Source: Lentisphaerota bacterium
GTDB lineage: Bacteria; Verrucomicrobiota; Lentisphaeria; Victivallales; Victivallaceae
DNA length: 40,589 nt
Assembly (NCBI GenBank): GCA_015061605.1
Contig: SUWH01000022.1
Span: 1-40,589 of the forward strand
Direction: 5' to 3'
Shown here: positions 25,324 to 39,295 of the stretch, piece after piece
Position numbering within the stretch: the first letter of the stretch is position 1
Layout: the number at the start of each line of letters is the position of its first letter
Translations under genes and position numbers: made by a program
Notes under the pieces: model-generated
Databases searched by the model: none
What the model was told of the DNA's origin: nothing
The model's input: only the letters and a program-made list of their open reading frames with translations

Positions 25324-26502
25324 ATGCACAGGATCTTCTGTTCAAACATTCCCGGAGAGGGCGTTGAATTCAAGCCCGAACCCAGAGAGGCTGAACATCT
25401 TTTCAAGGTGTTCCGGGCGCGTCCCGGCGAGGCGGTCGAATTGCTCGACGGCCGCGGCAGCCGTGCCCGCGCCACGGTCATCGAACAGAAAATGATCCGT
25501 ATCGAACAAGTCGAAACCGCCGCTGTTCCCGCCGAAAAACTCCACCTCTGCTGCGCGCTGCCCCGCCGTCAGAAATTGGATTCTCTTTTGAAACAGGCTG
25601 CTGAACTTGGAGCATGGACGATCCGCCCGGTGCGTTGTGAGCGTTCCGTCGCCGAGGGAAATCCGAGAGAGCGCTGGGAAGTGCTGCTTCAGGAGGCGTG
25701 CAAGCAATCCGGAAATCCGTTCCTGCCGGAAATTTACCGGGAAAACTCACTCAAAGATACGCTTGAAGCATTGAAAGCGGAAAATATCGATATTTATTAC
25801 GGCAGCGTGAAAAAGATCGATCATGCCAAACGTGATTTGCCTGTCGAACGGGAAAAAGCCATTCTCATCGGCCCCGAGGGCGGTTTCAGCGATGCGGAAA
25901 CCGATATGATCGCAGCTTACTGCGGTATCCCGCTCAATCTGGGACCGCATATCCTGCGTCTGGAAACCGCCGCTGTCGCTGCGCTGGCGGTACTGCGGAT
26001 GCTGGTTCTGCCGTTCATGGCGGCTGTTTTGCTGGTTTCTTCCGGTTGCGGACCGGGGGATGTTTCGCGCAATCCGTTGATGATAAAAGCTGAACAACTC
26101 AAGCGCGATGGAGCATTTGCCGATGCCAGAAGATTTCTGCGTCAGGTCGTCGCCCGCTATCCGGAATCTCCGGAGGGATACCTCGCTCTGGGAAAACTCT
26201 GCGAAGAGGAGCTGGACGATAAACTTGAAGCCATCTACTGTTACCGCAATTTTATGCAGCTTGCTTCTGAAAATGATTACCGCCGGGATAGTGTGGAAAA
26301 ATATATCCGGGCGATGGAAGAAAAAATTTCCGCAGATTATGTCGCCGCTTCTCCGGAAGTTGAGAAGCTCCGGAAACTGAATAAAGGTATGCAGGAGGAA
26401 CTCATCCTCGCCAAGCGTGTCGCTTTACGCAGTCAGCAGAAAGCTGAACAGCTTGAAAAAAAGTTGAAAGATGTCACCGGAAAACGTCGTAAGAGGAGAT
26501 GA
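25324..26502 (+). CDS. rsmE: RsmE 16S rRNA m3U1498 methyltransferase fused in frame to a TPR lipoprotein
   Basis: Residues 1 to about 226 are a complete RsmE: a PUA-like N-terminus (M-H-R-I-F-C), then the SPOUT domain with G-P-E-G-G-F-S-D-A-E and L-G-P-H-I-L-R-L-E-T-A. RsmE methylates U1498 of 16S rRNA in the cytoplasm. No stop follows. The frame runs into a hydrophobic segment, M-L-V-L-P-F-M-A-A-V-L-L-V-S-S-G-C (226-242), a convincing lipoprotein signal with Cys242. A TPR-like domain (about 255-330) and a basic coiled-coil tail come next. Either one membrane-spanning fusion is made, or internal ATGs (25999, 26017) start a separate lipoprotein. Neither internal ATG has a clear ribosome site. 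Normal RsmE is about 240 residues. Two lipoprotein genes follow directly. Confidence 0.9.
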   Translation: MHRIFCSNIPGEGVEFKPEPREAEHLFKVFRARPGEAVELLDGRGSRARATVIEQKMIRIEQVETAAVPAEKLHLCCALPRRQKLDSLLKQAAELGAWTIRPVRCERSVAEGNPRERWEVLLQEACKQSGNPFLPEIYRENSLKDTLEALKAENIDIYYGSVKKIDHAKRDLPVEREKAILIGPEGGFSDAETDMIAAYCGIPLNLGPHILRLETAAVAALAVLRMLVLPFMAAVLLVSSGCGPGDVSRNPLMIKAEQLKRDGAFADARRFLRQVVARYPESPEGYLALGKLCEEELDDKLEAIYCYRNFMQLASENDYRRDSVEKYIRAMEEKISADYVAASPEVEKLRKLNKGMQEELILAKRVALRSQQKAEQLEKKLKDVTGKRRKRR

Positions 26503-26506
26503 AGTG

Positions 26507-26998
26507 ATGAAAAATATGCTGATGTTTTTTACTGTTGTTTTTGCTGTGATGTTTTCCGGATGTATCTTTTCCGGAACTCCGGTCAAATTTGAGTTGTATA
26601 CTGCTGATTTGCCGGGTGGAACTTTGCCGTACCGGGTCGGAGCTGTGAGCAATCTTTCCGGAGCCGGACGGGAGTTTCTGGTTCAGGATTCGGGCAGTCA
26701 GGTGAGTGTTGACCGTTCCCGCCGTTTTCTCAATGAGCCGGATCAGATGCTGCGTTCCGCGTTGAGTGTGGTTTGTACCGGAGAAAAAGGGATGGTTTCG
26801 GCGCAGGTGATCAAGTTTGAATTTTCACCGGGATTGAAGAGTTTGAATGGGGTTGCTGTCTTTTCAATAAAGGTGAACAGTGTGACAAAAACAATTGTTT
26901 GCCGCGAAACTGTCAAAGTAGAGGATAATGACTGCGGCAGAGCTGCCGCAGAGTTTTTTGAACGTTGTATAAAACAAATTTCAGGAGTGAAATTATGA
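26507..26998 (+). CDS. Lipoprotein, possibly ABC-type transport auxiliary (PqiC/DUF330-like)
   Basis: A 163-residue lipoprotein: signal M-K-N-M-L-M-F-F-T-V-V-F-A-V-M-F-S-G-C with the lipid-bearing Cys at 19. ATG 26507 has AGAGGAG eight bases upstream and gives the signal directly. A later stretch, V-S-V-D-R-S-R-R-F-L-N-E-P-D-Q-M-L, resembles the R-W-x-x-P-x-x-L-L region of PqiC-type auxiliary lipoproteins, which work with lipid-handling ABC/Mce systems at the cell envelope. The resemblance is by eye and no Mce partner is in the window. It starts four bases after the RsmE fusion and overlaps the next lipoprotein gene by four. Confidence 0.7.
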   Translation: MKNMLMFFTVVFAVMFSGCIFSGTPVKFELYTADLPGGTLPYRVGAVSNLSGAGREFLVQDSGSQVSVDRSRRFLNEPDQMLRSALSVVCTGEKGMVSAQVIKFEFSPGLKSLNGVAVFSIKVNSVTKTIVCRETVKVEDNDCGRAAAEFFERCIKQISGVKL

Positions 26999-27432
26999 AA
27001 AAATATTTTTTGTTGACGGCTTTTGCCGCGGCGGTTTTGCTGATCGGAGGCTGTGTGCGTACTTCCACTCTGGACTGGACTCCGGCACAACATGGCGATG
27101 TGAGCAGTTCCGGAAAAGAGGTCGCTTATCACCTCAAAGCACGGAATTGCGGACTGTATCTTTTCAATTTCATCCCCATCTGGTCGGGAAAAGTTAGCCG
27201 CCCAAACCGTAAAGATTATGAATTGTGGCAGGATATGGTCAATGAATGGGATATGCGGCGTTTGCTTGAACGGGAGCTTGAACGGCTCGGTGCCAGCCAT
27301 GTCGAAGATGTGAAAATGAGCAGCTATTCCAGCGGAGCATGGACATTGTGGATATTCTGGAAAAAGTCCATGACCGCCAGTGCCGTTGCAATAAAAAAAG
27401 CTCCGAAAGCAAAAAAAACGGAAACAAAATAA
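26995..27432 (+). CDS. Lipoprotein of unknown function
   Basis: A 145-residue protein with signal M-K-K-Y-F-L-L-T-A-F-A-A-A-V-L-L-I-G-G-C (lipid Cys at 20). ATG 26995 overlaps the previous stop (ATGA) and has AGGAG seven bases upstream. The mature part has an aromatic stretch, L-Y-L-F-N-F-I-P-I-W-S-G, a helical M-R-R-L-L-E-R-E-L-E-R-L-G-A segment and a hydrophobic W-T-L-W-I-F-W near the end, then a Lys-rich tail. I do not recognise a named family. It is the third consecutive envelope lipoprotein in this transcript; a joint role with its neighbours is inference. Confidence 0.7.
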   Translation: MKKYFLLTAFAAAVLLIGGCVRTSTLDWTPAQHGDVSSSGKEVAYHLKARNCGLYLFNFIPIWSGKVSRPNRKDYELWQDMVNEWDMRRLLERELERLGASHVEDVKMSSYSSGAWTLWIFWKKSMTASAVAIKKAPKAKKTETK

Positions 27433-29570: not shown

Positions 29571-29620
29571 TAACAGCTGATTGACAGCAGTTGCAGCTTA
29601 AACAGTGTGTGGTGTTGAAT

Positions 29621-31438
29621 ATGGCAGACGCAAATAAGATTTTGGCAATAGACATCGGCGGTGAAAACCTCAAAATGGCCGAATTTCATTATCAGGAAAA
29701 CGGCCGGTTGACAATGGAGCTTTTTGCCTTCCGTAAAATGGTGCGGATAGAGGATGAAAGCAACAAAGAGATGTTTCGCCGTTACTACAGCGAATTGTTG
29801 GAAGAGTACGGTTTTACAGCAGATTCGGTCCGTCTTTCTCTGTCCGCACAAAATTCTTTTCAGCGTTTGAGCAAACTGCCGCCGGTACTGGGCAATAAAG
29901 AGTCCATTGACCGGATGGTGGAGTATGAGGCATCGCAGACCGTCCCATATTCGATCGATGAAATCGAATGGGGATACCAGCTGCTTTATCACGAGTGGGA
30001 AGAGTTGGTCCCTGAGGAACAGGAAGACGGTACTATTCAGGAAGTGAGCGTTAAACGCGAGGAAAATGAAGCTCTTTTCATCGCCATGCGCAGCGATGAT
30101 GTTGTCATTTATACCGATGTTATTGAAGATTCCGGAAAAAAGGTGCTGTCGGTGGATGTCGCTCCCGTGGCACTTTTTAACGCGGCTCTGGCGGCGCAGA
30201 TCAAAGAGGATGAATGCGTGCTTCTGATCAATATCGGCGGCAGTTCGACCACTCTGATGATCGCCGACCACCGGCGTATATTCATGCGTAATATCCCGAC
30301 TGCCGGAGAAGCGGTCACGGCCCAGATCGTCCGCGAATTTGCGATCGGTCACGATCAGGCCGAAGAGTTCAAGCGCCGTTACGGTTTTGTCGCTCTCGGC
30401 GGAGCTTATGAAGAACCGGAATCCGAATTGGCAGCCAAGATATCCAAGCTCACCCGTAACGTTATGACCCGTTTGCATGGCGAAATAAGCCGTTCGATAA
30501 ATGTCTGGCGGGCGCAGCACGGCGGTTCTGCTCCCGGGCGGGTTCTGCTCGCCGGAGGTGGATCCACTATGAGATATACCACCGACTTTTTCAAAGAAAA
30601 GCTCCGTATTCCGACCGAATATCTGAATACCTATACTCTGATCGATTTCGGACCGTATGTCGATAAGGAATTGCTTCAGTCGACCGCGTCCATGTCCCAG
30701 GCGCTTATCGGTCTTGCGCTGCGCGGTTTGAATCACTCTCCGCTGGATATTTCACTTTTGCCGCGCAAGATCAAAAAGCAGGTCGAATTCAACGGCCGCA
30801 AACCTTTTCTCTATGCCAGTGCGGCAACATTGCTGGTCTGTTTGTTGATCGTGCTTTTCGGTGTGAATAAGCTGCTTGACTTTGAAACTCTCCGGGTCGC
30901 CGAAGTGCATAAACGTCTTGAAAGAGCCGAAAGAGAATCAAAGGCGATCAAGGCAATCGATCAGGAACGGAATGATAAACTTTCTCAATACAATATGATG
31001 AAAAAGTTTCTGGATGACCGTACGCAGTGGAGCAAGCTGATCGAGGTGATCCAGTCAAAAATACCGGAAAATATGTGGTTGGTGACTCTTGAGTATGAAT
31101 CTGACAATATGCTCAACAATGATGGGCAGAGTGAAGATCTTCATGGTGATGAGCACCGCGAAGGAAGCGCTGCTTTAAGTGCAAATCCGGATAAACGGCA
31201 GGGCATCAATCATATTTCCCGCAGTACAACTATAAATCGTGTGCGTTTGGTCGGTTATACGCTTGGTTCAGAGATCGAAACAACCAGCAAATTCCTGAAT
31301 AATATGAGAGAATATGCCAGGCAGGAAGGTTCGCTGATCACTGAAGTCCATCCGGCAGGAAACAATCAAAGTTCTGCGGATTGGAATTTGTATTATTTTG
31401 AATGTAAACTGACGCTCAGAAATCCGATAAAGAAGTAA
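29621..31438 (+). CDS. pilM: PilM-PilN fusion, Amuc_1101 family PilM-like pilus complex protein
   Basis: Residues 1 to about 380 form an actin-like PilM ATPase fold: I-L-A-I-D-I-G-G-E-N-L-K-M-A near the start, L-L-I-N-I-G-G-S-S-T-T-L (phosphate 2) and L-L-A-G-G-G-S-T-M (adenosine loop). A transmembrane helix (about 394-416), a coiled coil and a ferredoxin-like PilN-type domain follow. In other bacteria PilM (cytoplasmic) and PilN (inner membrane) are separate and interact, so here one 605-residue chain joins them. ATG 29621 is chosen because M-A-D-A-N-K-I-L-A-I-D-I-G-G is the natural start; there is no good ribosome site. It should form the inner-membrane alignment platform with the next two products. 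Confidence 0.88.
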   Translation: MADANKILAIDIGGENLKMAEFHYQENGRLTMELFAFRKMVRIEDESNKEMFRRYYSELLEEYGFTADSVRLSLSAQNSFQRLSKLPPVLGNKESIDRMVEYEASQTVPYSIDEIEWGYQLLYHEWEELVPEEQEDGTIQEVSVKREENEALFIAMRSDDVVIYTDVIEDSGKKVLSVDVAPVALFNAALAAQIKEDECVLLINIGGSSTTLMIADHRRIFMRNIPTAGEAVTAQIVREFAIGHDQAEEFKRRYGFVALGGAYEEPESELAAKISKLTRNVMTRLHGEISRSINVWRAQHGGSAPGRVLLAGGGSTMRYTTDFFKEKLRIPTEYLNTYTLIDFGPYVDKELLQSTASMSQALIGLALRGLNHSPLDISLLPRKIKKQVEFNGRKPFLYASAATLLVCLLIVLFGVNKLLDFETLRVAEVHKRLERAERESKAIKAIDQERNDKLSQYNMMKKFLDDRTQWSKLIEVIQSKIPENMWLVTLEYESDNMLNNDGQSEDLHGDEHREGSAALSANPDKRQGINHISRSTTINRVRLVGYTLGSEIETTSKFLNNMREYARQEGSLITEVHPAGNNQSSADWNLYYFECKLTLRNPIKK

Positions 31439-31456
31439 GTCCGGGAGGGTTTTATA

Positions 31457-33160
31457 GTGAATTCGTTTGTTAAAAAGAATGGTGTATTGGTCGGGGTCCT
31501 GGCTTTGTCTGGAATCGCGGCATTGACATTGCTGATTTTTATTTTTATCAATCTGTTCGGATTGTTTGATAAAATTGATGAAACCCGTCAGGCCAGCGAC
31601 CGTGTACGTTCGCTTAATAAATCAAGACCTGCTCCGTGTGAAGAGAATGAAAAACTTATCAAATCCGATATTGCTGTACTGGATAACGCCATCAAAGGTT
31701 TGCGCGGCGGATTTGATTTCCCGCTTCAGGTCGCTGTGGATGAGTTTATCAAAGTCCTTGAGCCGCCGCTCGTTGCCGGAAAAGCCGGTGATGTCGGATT
31801 GAATGAGGAGGAATACGAGAATTTCCGTTATGTCTATCCCGGTGAAGATGATATGGACAGTGAAAAACGGGCGGCATTGCCCAAAAAGGCCCGAAAACTT
31901 TCACTCGATGATTTCAAAAAGCTGTACAGCGGCCGTTTTGAGAGAGAGTATGGAGAAAACTCTGCCCGGAATATGTTGTCGACGCAGGAACTTTTTATCG
32001 ACAGTTTCAGCCGTATTTTTTCCAACTGGGATGTCGCTTTGCAGGCATTTGTTAAAAAGGCCAGACCGTTGACCGTTGAACCGATCATGAATGTCAACGA
32101 TGAATCGATTCTGCTTTCAGCAATGGGATTCCCCCGGGCACTTCCATTGCAGCGGGTTTTTAACAGTCATATGGAGGAATATTCTGCCGCATTGCGCAAA
32201 ATCGTCGATGCTGAAGTGGAAAGAAGAACGAAACTGGCAAAAGATGCCGTGGAAAAAGCTGCCGCTGCCCGGGATGCCGAAAATCAGCTTAAATCCGCGA
32301 TCGAAGCGGAAAAGGATGCGGCAGCCGCAAAAGCTGTCGCCGAAAAAGATACTTCAGAGAACGCCGCTGAAAAACTGGCTGCGGCAAATGATGATTGGAA
32401 ACATGCAGTAGACGAAAAAGAAAACGCCCGGAAAGAGAGTGAAGCTAAAACTGCCGCGGCAAAGGAAGCTGCCGAAAAAGCCAGGGAAGGCGGAGCGGAA
32501 ATAAAAATATTTGAAAATCCGGAAGAGATCTTTTACGTTTCCCCGGCGGTTTTAAGCTTTATGAGTGGTGTCGGAGCCGGTTATGCCGACGGTGATGTCC
32601 GGGAGGTTTATTTCCAGCGGGATGTCGTTGGAAATCTGCTTAAACATGTAGTGAAAAGCGGAGTGAAAGCAATGCATAACATTGCAGTGCGCCGTTTCGG
32701 AGCTGCCGAAGAAGGACGTTCTTACGGCACTCTTTATGAGTCGATCGGCGATTTCAATGTTCATCACTACACCATTGAAGTCAGTGGTACACTGCAGAAA
32801 ATCCGTGCATTGTGTGAATCACTTGATCAGTCCTATAAAGTTAAACGTTTCTACATTGTACGCGCAGTTACGCTGTATGCCGAAGAAAATAAAGCAGCAG
32901 TCCTGATGGGACAGAATACGATCGTTCATTCCAATAAAAATGAACGCCAACAGGAAGAGGGACGCGGACGCCGCCGGCGCAGGCAAATTGAAGAAGACAC
33001 TAATACCGAAGTCGAAGAAAACGCAGCCCGAAAAATGCAGGAACTTGAAGAAAAGCTGCCTTTCTATCAGAGAAAAGGTTATGGCGATGTGCTGATCGGT
33101 CAAAGCGATTGCCGTGCTTTTATCGATATTGACTACGTACTTCCGCAACATAAACAGTAA
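31457..33160 (+). CDS. Amuc_1100 family pilus-like protein, enlarged
   Basis: A 567-residue protein with a cytoplasmic basic start, a single transmembrane helix (about 9-34), coiled coils (one near the start, a long Ala/Glu/Lys-rich one about 248-342) and PilO/GspM-like alpha/beta domains, the last ending in A-F-I-D-I-D-Y-V-L-P. GTG 31457 has GGGAGGG seven bases upstream. It holds the place of Amuc_1100, the Akkermansia pilus-locus protein reported to signal through TLR2, but is far longer (317 residues there). An Arg-rich patch, G-R-G-R-R-R-R-R-Q, lies near 501-509. The family call rests on order and architecture. Confidence 0.75.
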   Translation: MNSFVKKNGVLVGVLALSGIAALTLLIFIFINLFGLFDKIDETRQASDRVRSLNKSRPAPCEENEKLIKSDIAVLDNAIKGLRGGFDFPLQVAVDEFIKVLEPPLVAGKAGDVGLNEEEYENFRYVYPGEDDMDSEKRAALPKKARKLSLDDFKKLYSGRFEREYGENSARNMLSTQELFIDSFSRIFSNWDVALQAFVKKARPLTVEPIMNVNDESILLSAMGFPRALPLQRVFNSHMEEYSAALRKIVDAEVERRTKLAKDAVEKAAAARDAENQLKSAIEAEKDAAAAKAVAEKDTSENAAEKLAAANDDWKHAVDEKENARKESEAKTAAAKEAAEKAREGGAEIKIFENPEEIFYVSPAVLSFMSGVGAGYADGDVREVYFQRDVVGNLLKHVVKSGVKAMHNIAVRRFGAAEEGRSYGTLYESIGDFNVHHYTIEVSGTLQKIRALCESLDQSYKVKRFYIVRAVTLYAEENKAAVLMGQNTIVHSNKNERQQEEGRGRRRRRQIEEDTNTEVEENAARKMQELEEKLPFYQRKGYGDVLIGQSDCRAFIDIDYVLPQHKQ

Positions 33161-33171
33161 GAGGTGGCGAG

Positions 33172-34404
33172 ATGAATTTTTTGAAACGTTATTATGATAA
33201 AGTCATCCTTTTGATACTTTTTATCGTTTTTGTCGTCCTGATGCTTTATGTCTGGAATGTCGTTGAACAGACCAATGAGGTCGATGATGCTAAATTGAAA
33301 TTGTCCCGTGCTGTACCGGATCCCGACAGTTACGGCAAATATAAAAATACCGATAAAGATTTTCAATATAATATGTTGTGGCAGAACAAAAAATTTTATT
33401 GGCAGAAAGGGAACCGCGCTGAAAGTGCATCGGATCTGATTGAGATGACGGCATTGGCTGAATGTCCGTATTGTTCCGAAAAAAGCGTTCAGAACGGCGG
33501 TGGAAAAATTCTCGTCAACAGAAGTACTTTCGGCAATAAATGTTCCGGTTATGCCGGCAGCGTGCATGATTTGCCGGTACCGGAACTGACGAGCATCAGC
33601 GTGGTCGGTGGATCCGGCGGGATCGACAGTGATGGCGACGGTATTTCAGATGCCGATGAAGAAAAGTTCAAGATGAATAAGGATGATAAGCGTGATGCGC
33701 TGTACGATAATGACGGTGACGGCTTCAGCAACCGGTTTGAGATCGCAAAATCCACGGATCCGAATGATCACACCAGTCATCCGCCGCTGTGGCATCGTTT
33801 GAGAGTGGTAAAAATTGCCGCTGCCAAATTGCCGATACAGTTGATCGGTGTCAATACATTCCCCAAGAACGGTAAGGATTCTCCGAAAGAGGATTGGGAA
33901 ATTTTCTGCAGAGTTCCCCGTTATAACCGGAGAAAAGGATGGCAGTCGCGCGATACCACTACAGCTCTCGGAAACCGGGTGATCGTGGATTATGATAATA
34001 ATTCCAGATATAAAATCGTTGATGTTGCCAAGAGTATTGATGCAGCCAGGAATATTGTGTTTACGGTGAAACTTCAAGAGATCGTTCCGGCAAAACTTAA
34101 AATGGAACCGCATTATATCACGATGACCAGCGGAAAGTCAGTTTATTCATGGGATGCCCGTCCGGTCATTCAGGATACCGGACGCCCCGGCAGTGATCTT
34201 GTCATTAAACCTAAAGGCGGTTCATTTACTATTCACAGACTTCAGAACAGCAATATCGATAAACACAGTGAAAGTTATGAGGTCGTGGATTTTCAGATTT
34301 CCAATGGCGTAGTCTCATTGCGCAATATCTCTTCCAATGAAGAGATCAAAATCACCCGCGAGGGAGAGATACCAAGGCGCGAAGTCGTTGTAAAAAGAGA
34401 CTGA
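33172..34404 (+). CDS. Amuc_1099 family pilus-like protein with calcium-binding thrombospondin-type repeats
   Basis: A 410-residue protein: N-terminal transmembrane helix (about 11-30), then a periplasmic part. A C-P-Y-C pair (98-101) with Cys124 might bind metal or form a disulfide. Two EF-hand-like or thrombospondin type 3 motifs follow: D-S-D-G-D-G-I-S-D (152-160) and D-N-D-G-D-G-F-S-N-R-F-E (179-190), then S-T-D-P-N-D, a classic calcium-site end. The C-terminal half is beta-rich. The position between Amuc_1100-like and secretin genes matches Amuc_1099. It could act as the pilotin or PilP-like link from the inner-membrane platform to the secretin, perhaps tuned by calcium (inference). It starts 11 bases after the previous stop. 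Confidence 0.75.
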   Translation: MNFLKRYYDKVILLILFIVFVVLMLYVWNVVEQTNEVDDAKLKLSRAVPDPDSYGKYKNTDKDFQYNMLWQNKKFYWQKGNRAESASDLIEMTALAECPYCSEKSVQNGGGKILVNRSTFGNKCSGYAGSVHDLPVPELTSISVVGGSGGIDSDGDGISDADEEKFKMNKDDKRDALYDNDGDGFSNRFEIAKSTDPNDHTSHPPLWHRLRVVKIAAAKLPIQLIGVNTFPKNGKDSPKEDWEIFCRVPRYNRRKGWQSRDTTTALGNRVIVDYDNNSRYKIVDVAKSIDAARNIVFTVKLQEIVPAKLKMEPHYITMTSGKSVYSWDARPVIQDTGRPGSDLVIKPKGGSFTIHRLQNSNIDKHSESYEVVDFQISNGVVSLRNISSNEEIKITREGEIPRREVVVKRD

Positions 34405-34472
34405 CTGAAGATGAAAATATGGTGTGTCGAATTTAATCAAAATAAAATATACATTTAGAAGGGATTGTGGAA

Positions 34473-37022
34473 ATGATGAAAACAACTGTCACTGTGGCAG
34501 GCATTTTTGCCGTGCTGTGCTGTTGCCAATCAGCCGCAGGTGCTGCAAAATCGCCTGAAAACAAGGCTCCGGGATCATCTGTTGACAGCAAACTCGTAAA
34601 TTCCTACGTTGATGAGGTAAATGCAAATTTTGCCGCACAGGATGAACGGCTGCGTCAAGCTGATGAATTGGCGAAAAAGGGTGAAGTTCTGGATGCGATC
34701 CGGATCTATCAGGATGTTTATTTCGGGTTGACTCTTGAAATGGACGGTCGTGACAGCTGGGTCGTCAAACGCCGGGTCAAAGAGATCGGCGGACGTTTGG
34801 ACGCTTTGAAGTTTGAGTATGGCAATAAGAAGCTCAAAGAAGCCGATACTGCCATCGGAGAAAAACGTTACAACTCTGCAATCACTCTGGCCAATGATGT
34901 CATAAGGATCTGTCCGGAGCTGGTCGAACAGGCAAACCGGATCAAGAGTCAGGCCAAGATCCGTCAGGATGCGGAAGAACGGATCAGAAAAGTTTCTCCG
35001 GATACGTTGAAACCGGAGCTGCGCAGTGACGAAAAGCGTATTGAAAATTACCTCGCTGAAGCAAAAGTGTTGATGAAGCACCGGCAGTTTGAAGATGCCC
35101 GCCGGAAAGTAGAAGAAGTTTTCAAACTCAATCCGTTCAATCAGGAGGCGGCGTATATCGTTTCCCAGATCTATTCCGAATACTATACCGCAGGTTACCA
35201 CCGCTCAATCGCGGATGTCCGGGCGATGCTGGCTGCAGAAGAGTGGACATGGGTCGAACCGACATTTTATCAGGGACCTGCCCGGAAAAAGAATCCGTCC
35301 GTACAGATCCACAGCGGCGGTGATCAGGCGATCCAGAAAAAACTTGATACGATTGTCCTGCCTGATGTCCGCTTCGACGGTCTTGCGGTGAGCGAAGTGT
35401 TGAAATCTCTGGAAAAACAGAGTAAGCAGTACGATATGACCAAGGAGGAAGAGAATAACCTCGGCGTCATCATCGACTTCAGCGTGCGTGGAAATAATGA
35501 AGCCGCATCCGCCGGCCCGGCTAAAGCCAAGACGGAAGAAGCTGAAGATGCCACAACGGAAGTTCAGCAGCAGACTGCTGTCCAGGCTCCCGCTGCAGAA
35601 GTCAATGAACTGGAAGTCCGTTTCAATGTGAAAGATGCCACATTGCGTGATGTGCTGGACTATCTGTCATTTCTTACCGATCTGCCCTATTATGTGACCT
35701 CTGAACGAGTTGTATTCGGTTCTAAAGATGACGATTTGCAGACTCATACATTCGACCTTTCTGCGGTGGCATTGGGACGTATCAGCGGAGATGACGGCAA
35801 CTCTGAGGCCACCGCTGCCGGCGGTGACGGAGGCGGTGAAAATCAGGATGCCGCAGTAACTCAGAACCGCAGCAAAATCAATATTGATTCAGAAATGCTC
35901 AAGAACTATTTTTCAGAACATTTCGGTATCAATTTCGATGCCCGGGGAAGCAATATCACCTACATCAACGGCAAGTTGATCATGACCAATACTCCGGAAA
36001 ACATCTCTTTGATGCGGGATGCGCTGGATCTGCTCAACCGCAGTAAGACGCTGGTGCAAATCGAACTCAAGAGTATTGAATTGTCCGAACAGGATCAGGA
36101 AGATCTCGGATTTGAATGGAGTCTGACGTCGGGTAGTACTACCTCGCCGAACTCTTTGCAGATGCGTGACAACAGAATAGAAGTCGGGAGAGGACAGTAT
36201 GCTGCGTTGAATAATCCGCTTTATTTCCTCGGTGAAGCCTTGGGCGAATCCGCAACTCTGATAAAAGATTTGAATATTTTTCCGGATATTTTTGGTTCGT
36301 GGAAGCCTTTCGGCATCGATCAGAGTTTGAATCTCTCTCTTACGATCAATGCCCTTGACCGCAATACGCGCAGTGAATCGATTTCCGCACCCTCGATTAC
36401 GGTGCTTGATTCCCAGACTGCTTCAATTGATTTGAATACCAGTTACTATTTCCCGGATTCATGGGAAGATCTTGAATTTGAATCTGATGATGACGGTGAC
36501 AATCCCAACGGTTATACCCTCCGTCCGCCAACTCCGGAATTCGGCGATGCCACCTCGATCGGGACCTCATTTAAAGTTACTCCGAGGGTTAAAAATAACA
36601 TTATCCAGTTGAACCTCAATCCTAAAATCACCTCCAGAGGAGACAATGATGCAGAGCAGATAGAAGTTGAAATCCAGACTTTGGATGATAATAATCAGCC
36701 GATACCGGGCGCCAGTGATATCCGTAACTATGAGGTTTGGAAACCGGTGATTGCCACCCGTAATGTTTCACTCAATGTCAATGTTTATGATGGAGAGACT
36801 CTGGTTATTGCCGGATTGGCAAACAGTGAACTTGAAACTCGATTGGATAAAATTCCCATTTTGGGTGATTTACCGCTTATCGGACGCTTGTTCCAGAGAC
36901 AATCGGAAACATCGAAGCGGTCAAATTTGCTGTTCTTTGTTACGGCACGTTTGATCAGTGATTCCGGTAACCAGGTTAATCGGATTAAAAACAGTGGCGG
37001 CATTCCGGATGTGAACCGTTAA
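34473..37022 (+). CDS. Amuc_1098 family type IV pilus outer-membrane secretin, copy 1
   Basis: An 849-residue secretin. Signal peptide (with an odd C-C-C at its end), TPR-like helical repeats (about 40-260), N-domains (about 290-540, including the D-V-L-D-Y-L-S-F-L-T-D-L STN-like part), and the C-terminal secretin barrel. The barrel has V-N-V-Y-D-G-E-T-L-V-I-A-G-L and the signature K-I-P-I-L-G-D-L-P-L-I-G-R-L-F near 792-806. A multimer should form the outer-membrane gate for the pilus. ATG 34473 follows AAGGG at nine bases; GTG 34467 is too close to it. An Asp/Asn-rich loop lies before the barrel. A paralogue begins 20 bases downstream. Confidence 0.92.
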   Translation: MMKTTVTVAGIFAVLCCCQSAAGAAKSPENKAPGSSVDSKLVNSYVDEVNANFAAQDERLRQADELAKKGEVLDAIRIYQDVYFGLTLEMDGRDSWVVKRRVKEIGGRLDALKFEYGNKKLKEADTAIGEKRYNSAITLANDVIRICPELVEQANRIKSQAKIRQDAEERIRKVSPDTLKPELRSDEKRIENYLAEAKVLMKHRQFEDARRKVEEVFKLNPFNQEAAYIVSQIYSEYYTAGYHRSIADVRAMLAAEEWTWVEPTFYQGPARKKNPSVQIHSGGDQAIQKKLDTIVLPDVRFDGLAVSEVLKSLEKQSKQYDMTKEEENNLGVIIDFSVRGNNEAASAGPAKAKTEEAEDATTEVQQQTAVQAPAAEVNELEVRFNVKDATLRDVLDYLSFLTDLPYYVTSERVVFGSKDDDLQTHTFDLSAVALGRISGDDGNSEATAAGGDGGGENQDAAVTQNRSKINIDSEMLKNYFSEHFGINFDARGSNITYINGKLIMTNTPENISLMRDALDLLNRSKTLVQIELKSIELSEQDQEDLGFEWSLTSGSTTSPNSLQMRDNRIEVGRGQYAALNNPLYFLGEALGESATLIKDLNIFPDIFGSWKPFGIDQSLNLSLTINALDRNTRSESISAPSITVLDSQTASIDLNTSYYFPDSWEDLEFESDDDGDNPNGYTLRPPTPEFGDATSIGTSFKVTPRVKNNIIQLNLNPKITSRGDNDAEQIEVEIQTLDDNNQPIPGASDIRNYEVWKPVIATRNVSLNVNVYDGETLVIAGLANSELETRLDKIPILGDLPLIGRLFQRQSETSKRSNLLFFVTARLISDSGNQVNRIKNSGGIPDVNR

Positions 37023-37042
37023 TTTGCCGGAGGAATCAGAAT

Positions 37043-39295
37043 ATGTTGAAAGAAAAAGTTACTTTTTGGATGCCCGCTTTGATGCTGGGTGTGTCAGTCT
37101 GTGCTGCTGTCGTTGAAACTGCTCCGGCAGCTGCCAAAGAGGTCAGTCCGGATTATACCGTGCGTCTGGTAAATGCCGGACGGCAGGCGATGCTGCGCGA
37201 TGTCAATGAAAAGATCTCCCGGGCAAATAAGCTGTTTGTTAACGGCGAATATCCTGAAGCAGTCAAGATCTACAGTACAATCGCAGAAGATTTGAAGCAG
37301 TTCTCCGGAGAGGTTTTTGTTAAAAAACGGGAGTATTGTCAGCAGCGTATTGAAGATTGCTATATCAAAGAAGCTGAAAAAGCAATGTTGATGGCAGATG
37401 ATTCTGTTTCTGTCGGTGATTTTGAGCGGGCGATCGCTCTCTGCAAAGAGGCAATACTTTTCTGCCCCGGAAAAAAAGCTGAATTGGAGAAAAAAATCGC
37501 ATTCTATGAGAAACGCCGCAACGCCGCCGTGATCCGGGAACAGCGGGATATCAGTGTGCTTCAGCCCACATACGCCGCAGATAATTATAAAGTTGACTTG
37601 CTTATTGAGCAGGGACGCGGTTTGGTCCGGCGCGAAGAATACATGAAAGCCAAACGGTGCTTTGAAGAGGTGCTGCTCATTGATCCGTATAATGATACTG
37701 CAATGCAGAATTTACTCGGTGTCAATACTTTGATCCAGAATGCCGCCAAACTGCGTGCCAATGCCACACAGAAGCGTTTCTCTGCAATGAGTATATGGTC
37801 CGGTGCGGTGCCGGTTGCTTCCAGTGAAAATCAGGAGAGTACTGATAACAATATTGATTCTCCGATCGATAAGATGCAGGAAGGCAGTACTGTTGCCGAC
37901 AAACTCAAAAAGATAAAGATTCCCAAAGTTCAATTTCAGGATCAGGGATTTGAGGAAATTACAGATTTTCTGCTGCGTGAAGCCAAACGTCATGATGAGA
38001 CGATAAACTTTATTTTCAAGGCAAATCCGAATCCGGATAAGGAGGTCCGTATTACCGAGTTGTCAAAGACAAATGTTTCGCTTCTGGATTTGCTCAATGA
38101 GTTGCAGAATACTCACAAAGCATTGACCTATCGTGTCGATAAAAATGTTGTCTTTATTGCTGCGGCCGGTGTTCCACTGGAAAAAAATGTGGTTAAAATG
38201 TGGCATCGGGATTTGCCGACTTCGGTAGAGGGCCAGGAGGCGCTTCAGGAGTATATTACCTCCAATAATATTAATTTTGATCCCAGTGTCGGTCAGTGGA
38301 TAAAGTACAACCGTAAAGACAGTCTGGTTATTGCCAATCATACTCCGGATAATTTGGTGAAAATCGAAAAAGCTCTTGATGAACTCAGTAATGATGAACC
38401 GGATATGGTTCAGATCATGTTCAAATTTCTGGAAGTTAAACAGAGCGATTTGGACGAATTGGCTTTCAGTTGGCAGTACAGCCGCACCGGAAATAACGTT
38501 AAGTTTGATAATGCCGGTAATTCATTGTTGCGCCATTATTCCTATGGTGCAATCGATGAGGAGTATTCCAAGCCGGAACGCTGGGCTGGTGCTCCCGGTA
38601 TTGAGTCAAAAGATGATGCCAATTTCTATTTCAATTGGCAAGACAAGCGGAATAAGGTGGATTTCCAGCTTTACGCCTTGGATTGGGCTGATAACAAGAG
38701 CATCCTTTACGCTCCGCGTTTCACCACTATCGGCGGTCAAATGGCGACGGTCGATATTTCGACCAAACGCCACTTTACCGATGAATGGGAATATATTGAC
38801 GAAGATGTTCAGGGCAACCGCCGCTTCACCGGTGCCTTTATGCCTGACCTGGCCCAGGAAGAGAGTATCGGTTTGCAGCCGTTCAATATCACGCCGCAGA
38901 TCAACGGCGAACATGTTACGCTGGATATCAACCTTGAGATCAAACAGCATGTGGGAGAAACTACATATATTATTGATTCAGGGGACGATCCGGAGAAAAT
39001 TACCAAACCGATTTTCAACGTCCGTAAAATCAATACGAATGTTACAGTCAAAGATTGTTCCACCGTTTTCATCGGCGGTGTCGTAAGTGACATGACCGAT
39101 ACGATCAATGACAAGGTGCCTATTCTTGGAGATATTCCGCTTATCGGCCGTTTGTTCCAGGCGAAGTACACCAAGTCGGAAAAGATCAATTTGATGGTTT
39201 TTGTTTCCTGCCGCATCATCAAGCCGGATGGTACATTGCGGTTCCCGGAAAATGCGGTCCAGAATGGTTTACCGACATTCTCACGCAACATGTAA
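37043..39295 (+). CDS. Amuc_1098-type secretin, copy 2 (tandem paralogue)
   Basis: A 750-residue paralogue of the gene before it with the same plan: signal peptide, TPR-like repeats (about 45-230), N-domains, and a C-terminal secretin barrel with K-V-P-I-L-G-D-I-P-L-I-G-R-L-F near 690-704. GGAGG stands well before ATG. The N-domain section is shorter and the last 50 residues differ (R-I-I-K-P-D-G-T-L-R-F-P). Both copies look intact, which argues for two working secretins: mixed rings, alternative rings, or separate machines sharing one platform. None of these is shown. A perfect terminator closes the operon. Confidence 0.92.
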   Translation: MLKEKVTFWMPALMLGVSVCAAVVETAPAAAKEVSPDYTVRLVNAGRQAMLRDVNEKISRANKLFVNGEYPEAVKIYSTIAEDLKQFSGEVFVKKREYCQQRIEDCYIKEAEKAMLMADDSVSVGDFERAIALCKEAILFCPGKKAELEKKIAFYEKRRNAAVIREQRDISVLQPTYAADNYKVDLLIEQGRGLVRREEYMKAKRCFEEVLLIDPYNDTAMQNLLGVNTLIQNAAKLRANATQKRFSAMSIWSGAVPVASSENQESTDNNIDSPIDKMQEGSTVADKLKKIKIPKVQFQDQGFEEITDFLLREAKRHDETINFIFKANPNPDKEVRITELSKTNVSLLDLLNELQNTHKALTYRVDKNVVFIAAAGVPLEKNVVKMWHRDLPTSVEGQEALQEYITSNNINFDPSVGQWIKYNRKDSLVIANHTPDNLVKIEKALDELSNDEPDMVQIMFKFLEVKQSDLDELAFSWQYSRTGNNVKFDNAGNSLLRHYSYGAIDEEYSKPERWAGAPGIESKDDANFYFNWQDKRNKVDFQLYALDWADNKSILYAPRFTTIGGQMATVDISTKRHFTDEWEYIDEDVQGNRRFTGAFMPDLAQEESIGLQPFNITPQINGEHVTLDINLEIKQHVGETTYIIDSGDDPEKITKPIFNVRKINTNVTVKDCSTVFIGGVVSDMTDTINDKVPILGDIPLIGRLFQAKYTKSEKINLMVFVSCRIIKPDGTLRFPENAVQNGLPTFSRNM

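Follow-up and report, generated by a model that had tools for sequence, protein, structure and literature searches.

A stop-free RsmE-lipoprotein fusion in a genus of the Victivallis vadensis family, with a predicted lipoprotein signal at its junction

Introduction

The locus described here raises the question of which protein, or proteins, are made from one reading frame in which the rRNA methyltransferase RsmE runs without a stop codon into a lipoprotein with a TPR part. It lies in what we call the window, the whole stretch of 40,589 nucleotides that was analysed, and the genome of the window is that of a genus within the family of Victivallis vadensis (NCBI lineage Lentisphaeria, Victivallales, Victivallaceae). 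A first-pass annotation of this DNA had left three readings side by side: a chain that remains whole and tethers RsmE to the membrane, a lipoprotein whose translation starts inside rsmE, and a single chain cut by signal peptidase into two proteins. Comparing the locus with its relatives, we found that the last of these fits best. In the literature searched, nothing was found on an RsmE-lipoprotein fusion, on the RsmE of Victivallis, or on an internal lipobox.

Results and Discussion

Layout of the Fused Gene

Translation of positions 25324-26502 gave 392 amino acids with no internal stop, and the parts that had been proposed for this frame were recovered (Table 1). The first 224 residues hold a complete RsmE with both of its domains, as had been claimed. 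The TPR plus coiled-coil description of the other half also stood. TPR_14 of Pfam matched at residues 252-292, and a long C-terminal helix was present in the predicted fold; a LysM domain was matched as well in 10 of the 32 fused members. Between the two halves, R225 and 16 uncharged residues precede Cys242, encoded by 26047-26049, where the internal lipoprotein signal had been placed.

The predicted fold of the fused protein was mostly confident (mean pLDDT 85.6, pTM 0.64). Taken in blocks of 10 residues, the RsmE domain had pLDDT values above 90 with the exception of 111-120, 161-170, and 171-180. It was also possible to see the last RsmE helix, residues 213-228, continuing into the junction, where residues 232-242 were of low confidence.

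The strong Shine-Dalgarno site of the next lipoprotein gene (26507-26998) overlaps the 3′ end of the fused ORF, and no NCBIfam family was matched by this gene. A second short lipoprotein-like gene was noted after it, at about 26998-27432. Farther along the window there are a gene for a PilM-like protein (29591-31438) and two adjacent genes for secretin-domain proteins (34467-37022 and 37043-39295), a region (29591-39295) that resembles the gene clusters of type IV pili or type II secretion and has its two secretins next to each other.

Table 1: Features of the fused gene and of the gene that follows it, in positions of the window.
Feature	Position	Strand	Basis or remark
Single ORF for RsmE and lipoprotein, 392 aa, ending in TGA	25324..26502	+	Shared by 32 loci in this genus
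PUA_4 RNA-binding domain match, residues 21-54	25384..25485	+	Pfam PF20260
RsmE SPOUT methyltransferase domain (Methyltrans_RNA), residues 72-224	25537..25995	+	Pfam PF04452
Predicted type II signal peptide within the ORF: R225, residues 226-241 hydrophobic, Cys242 of the lipobox	25996..26049	+	Own pattern
In-frame ATG (M226), candidate internal start	25999..26001	+	6/32 loci
Predicted mature lipoprotein: TPR 252-292, long C-terminal helix 344-391	26047..26499	+	Pfam, predicted fold
Next gene, short lipoprotein, ATG 26507, 163 aa	26490..26998	+	Shine-Dalgarno control

Distribution of the Fusion

The fusion was present, stop-free and in the same frame, in 31 of the 34 genomes of the genus, which gives 32 loci whose products are 36-69% identical to the fused ORF of the window; no stop was found between the end of RsmE and the lipobox Cys in any of the 32. 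One genome (G044; 4.1 Mb, 8% contamination) contributed two different fused genes, L040 and L050, and is probably a mixed assembly. Considering that these genomes look like metagenome assemblies, with many contigs and a completeness of 54-98%, the join might be suspected to come from a frameshift, a missing stop, or a chimeric contig. Its recurrence at such distances in 31 separate genomes excludes a sequencing error, which the first-pass annotation had named as a threat to the junction, as well as a chimeric contig, and an artefact of any of these kinds is given practically no weight.

An RsmE of the fused type was not found in the remaining three of the 34 genomes, G005, G018, and G019, which are 71-83% complete. 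G018 and G019 gave one weaker RsmE-family match apiece, taken for the second paralogue, and a further RsmE match was found in each of the 31 fusion-bearing genomes. In the genome of the window this second RsmE-family gene lies on another contig (L002:1288-1998; G000:C39, about 100922-101566) and scored 234 bits to NF008700 (cut-off 252); the gene before it looks by eye like that of a glucose-6-phosphate isomerase. The profile search of G005 gave no PF04452 match at all, and its distant TPR-LysM lipoprotein is a separate gene (L186, G005:C277) with 26% identity and no RsmE match; this genome, labelled as the same genus, may be misplaced or incomplete.

The search was extended to the order (112 genomes at least 80% complete, 23 of the genus and 89 of other genera) and to the phylum (288 genomes at least 85% complete, 19 of the genus and 269 of other genera). 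Among the matches listed for the 89 and the 269 genomes of other genera, no join of RsmE to a lipoprotein without a stop was found. Some candidates were discarded on inspection: the apparent stop-free junctions of G091, G082, and G068 belong to independent lipoprotein genes, each of which has a start of its own and lacks RsmE sequence, the genes of the apparent fusion in G029 (open frame 490) are separated by two stops, and the RsmE of G072 and that of G108 terminate at a stop.

The RsmE Half

Both PF04452 and PF20260 were matched in all 32 fused members. The RsmE half scored 127.5 bits with TIGR00046 (cut-off 41), and the best NCBIfam equivalog gave 135 bits where its cut-off is 196; the separate RsmE of V. 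vadensis, with 124.9, was likewise below. When the family profile was compared with the structures of RsmE in the PDB, the 16S rRNA m3U1498 methyltransferase (4e8b, 5o95), the first 224 positions matched both domains and the best match ended at position 224.

In PMC5699498, a Glu and an Arg of RsmE are proposed for RNA binding or catalysis, and both are also kept in the fused protein, where E185 and R212 are invariant at the 32 loci. The third catalytic or RNA-binding position is mostly Lys instead of Arg (28 Lys, 2 Arg, 2 Gln), and the equivalent of Arg222, in the ligand loop, is His, Tyr, or Trp; the equivalence of the three positions to Glu198, Arg225, and Arg93 of Lpg2936 (5o95) was counted by hand with an assumed offset of one. 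Taking into account that two of these residues are kept while the third position and Arg222 are replaced, the RsmE half is probably, but not certainly, active.

The compared RsmEs end at most about 45 residues from the LRxETA motif, whereas the last helix of the fused protein runs into the lipoprotein signal. According to PMC5699498, the two subunits of a solved RsmE dimer meet in an interface whose core is this helix. With a signal peptide directly after it, the dimer would have to form at or near the membrane.

The Junction as a Predicted Lipoprotein Signal

The junction was scored with a pattern of our own, which comprises a positive n-region, a short hydrophobic stretch, and a lipobox Cys. 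The 32 fused loci all match this pattern, placed internally instead of at the N-terminus. Cys242 is present in 32/32 and Gly241 in 31/32, and the mean share of the top residue in the adjoining stretch is 0.38. Lys or Arg occupies position 225 or 226 in 32/32 fused loci versus 17/38 separate RsmEs, in counts that ignore relatedness. The hydrophobic stretch is uncharged and 13-19 residues long, and genes for LspA, Lgt, and an M50 protease were found in the genome of the window. The best reading of these features is that Cys242 is predicted to be lipidated and the chain cleaved there by LspA.

The continuous chain at all 32 loci and the hydrophobic stretch at the junction would also suit a permanent tether, an uncut chain that keeps RsmE on the cytoplasmic side and exposes the TPR part on the other. 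Nevertheless, 13-19 residues are few for a lasting anchor, and a stretch of this length that ends in an invariant lipobox Cys has the features of cleaved lipoproteins, which makes the tether less likely, and the LspA and Lgt genes that are present speak against it too. We regard this reading, the first that had been offered for the locus, as improbable.

Evidence on an Internal Start

A different origin for the lipoprotein would be an internal start, partly non-AUG (V223, L224, M226, M211), from which its precursor is made while the first start gives the RsmE fusion. The window carries ATG226, and an NTG codon lies within codons 223-227 at 27/32 fused loci versus 23/36 separate RsmEs (p=0.10; 36 of the 38 were compared because two end too early). 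Leu224 is TTG in 15/32 fused loci versus 8/36 separate RsmEs (p=0.04), an enrichment that is a mild hint of non-AUG starts. Over the whole junction 154 NTG codons were observed versus 138.8 expected (sd 8.4). An ATG at 211 occurs in seven fused loci, six of which are one clade; Met211 was discarded as a sign of an internal start, being equally common in separate RsmEs (11/38) and fused ones (7/32).

Against such a start, no codon column of the junction has ATG, GTG, or TTG in more than 15 of the 32 loci, and L016, L019, L022, L033, and L051 lack any NTG in 223-227. Nor was an ancestral conserved ATG seen at the junction: M226 occurs in 6/32 loci, and L033, a nearest relative by identity and the locus most similar to that of the window, has TTA in its place. 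ATG226 has no Shine-Dalgarno match in the window, and a signal peptide beginning at M226 would be left with no Lys or Arg.

Where several candidates for Shine-Dalgarno pairing existed, at internal starts or at the next gene alike, the strongest was used. The median was -3.0 at 98 internal NTGs and thus no stronger than the -3.3 at 411 NTGs of the RsmE body; for the best in-frame internal NTG of each fused locus it was -4.05 (n=32). The next lipoprotein-like gene on the same strand, found in 26/32 loci (the rule did not find it in the other 6), had a median of -8.1, so this genus does use Shine-Dalgarno sites. By eye, two or more kinds can be told apart among the lipoprotein-like ORFs that follow the fused loci. 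At the rsmE starts of this genus the pairing was only moderate (median -5.25; p=0.015 versus the best internal NTG), and therefore weak pairing does not exclude initiation. Taken together, an internal start is not supported by these comparisons as the common mechanism, although some species may use one. The proposal of a lipoprotein that starts inside rsmE found neither a conserved start nor a ribosome site at the junction, and we consider dual products unlikely, less so than the tether.

Separate Genes in Related Genera

From other genera of the family 36 loci were fetched, of which 30 were parsed by the C-terminal motif and six dropped as unparsed (L066, L079, L083, L085, L087, and L089). 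A stop follows RsmE in all 30. The relatives with a stop between two genes, which the first-pass annotation had set as grounds for refutation, are thus real in the other genera, but in its own genus there is none (0/32), and the fusion is accordingly taken as a probably derived and kept state.

The rsmE and lipoprotein genes are often neighbours in these other genera. At 20 of the 30 loci a lipoprotein-like ORF starts within the stop codon of rsmE (18 ATGA and 2 TTGA). These ORFs were scored by their Cys pattern only, so that some of the 20 may be other than the TPR lipoprotein; the loci were chosen partly for the closeness of both halves, and 20/30 is therefore not an unbiased frequency. Nearly every one of these overlapping starts has a good Shine-Dalgarno site upstream, with pairing of -2.6 to -13.4 kcal/mol and a median of -7.6. 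The pair of V. vadensis (L059/L090) has both proteins in the same order as the fused gene, and its next gene is also a small lipoprotein; it differs in being two unfused genes with an ATGA overlap, the second of which is preceded by a GGAGG site.

It is noted that the fused loci are without the last few residues of RsmE, where the Shine-Dalgarno site of the separate pairs lies, and without the stop. This difference fits coupled genes that were turned into one gene. The ancestral state would be an rsmE gene translationally coupled to a TPR/LysM lipoprotein gene by an ATGA overlap, and the direction of change suggested by the family is that this pair merged in the genus of the window. In the tree the fused loci stand on one side of a branch that is only weakly supported (54/90, found in 52% of the bootstrap trees), which is compatible with a single origin of the fusion.

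Proposed Processing of a Single Precursor

Judging from the sequence comparisons, the most probable account of the locus, and one that we hold with some confidence, is a single precursor exported from its internal lipoprotein signal and cleaved into a tailed RsmE and a free lipoprotein. The ribosome would make one chain, of which the RsmE part comes out first and would fold in the cytoplasm. The last RsmE helix would lead into the short signal peptide of type II, and the end of RsmE would now serve as the positive n-region of this signal; the downstream part would be exported by the Sec machinery. Lgt would then lipidate Cys242 and LspA would cleave before it. One product would be the free TPR lipoprotein, and the other an RsmE that ends in some 16 hydrophobic residues and is held by them, at least briefly, on the cytoplasmic side of the membrane. 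An intramembrane protease may later remove this tail and release the enzyme; a role of the M50 protease in it would be speculation.

A precedent is FbcH, the precursor of cytochromes b and c1 of Bradyrhizobium, in which a single ORF gives two proteins through an internal signal peptide cleaved by signal peptidase. In FbcH the halves are partners in the same membrane complex and are linked by a type I signal, while the fused ORF, known so far from sequence, has a predicted type II signal between a cytosolic rRNA enzyme and a lipoprotein.

Conclusions

On the same evidence we suggest, tentatively and at slightly less than even chances, that signal peptidase II acts in this genus as the processor of a polyprotein; it would yield lipoprotein and membrane-tailed RsmE in equal measure, and 16S rRNA would be methylated by an enzyme born at the membrane and kept there for a short time or longer. 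If the single precursor is true, the genus would offer a fixed natural case of an rRNA enzyme of the cytosol that is made as one chain with an exported lipoprotein, with the other states, separate genes and ATGA overlap beside the fusion, still visible in related genera. Several questions would become open to test: can a lipoprotein signal function when a large cytosolic domain has already folded ahead of it, can LspA process a chain of this kind, and by what route do coupled genes become a polyprotein?
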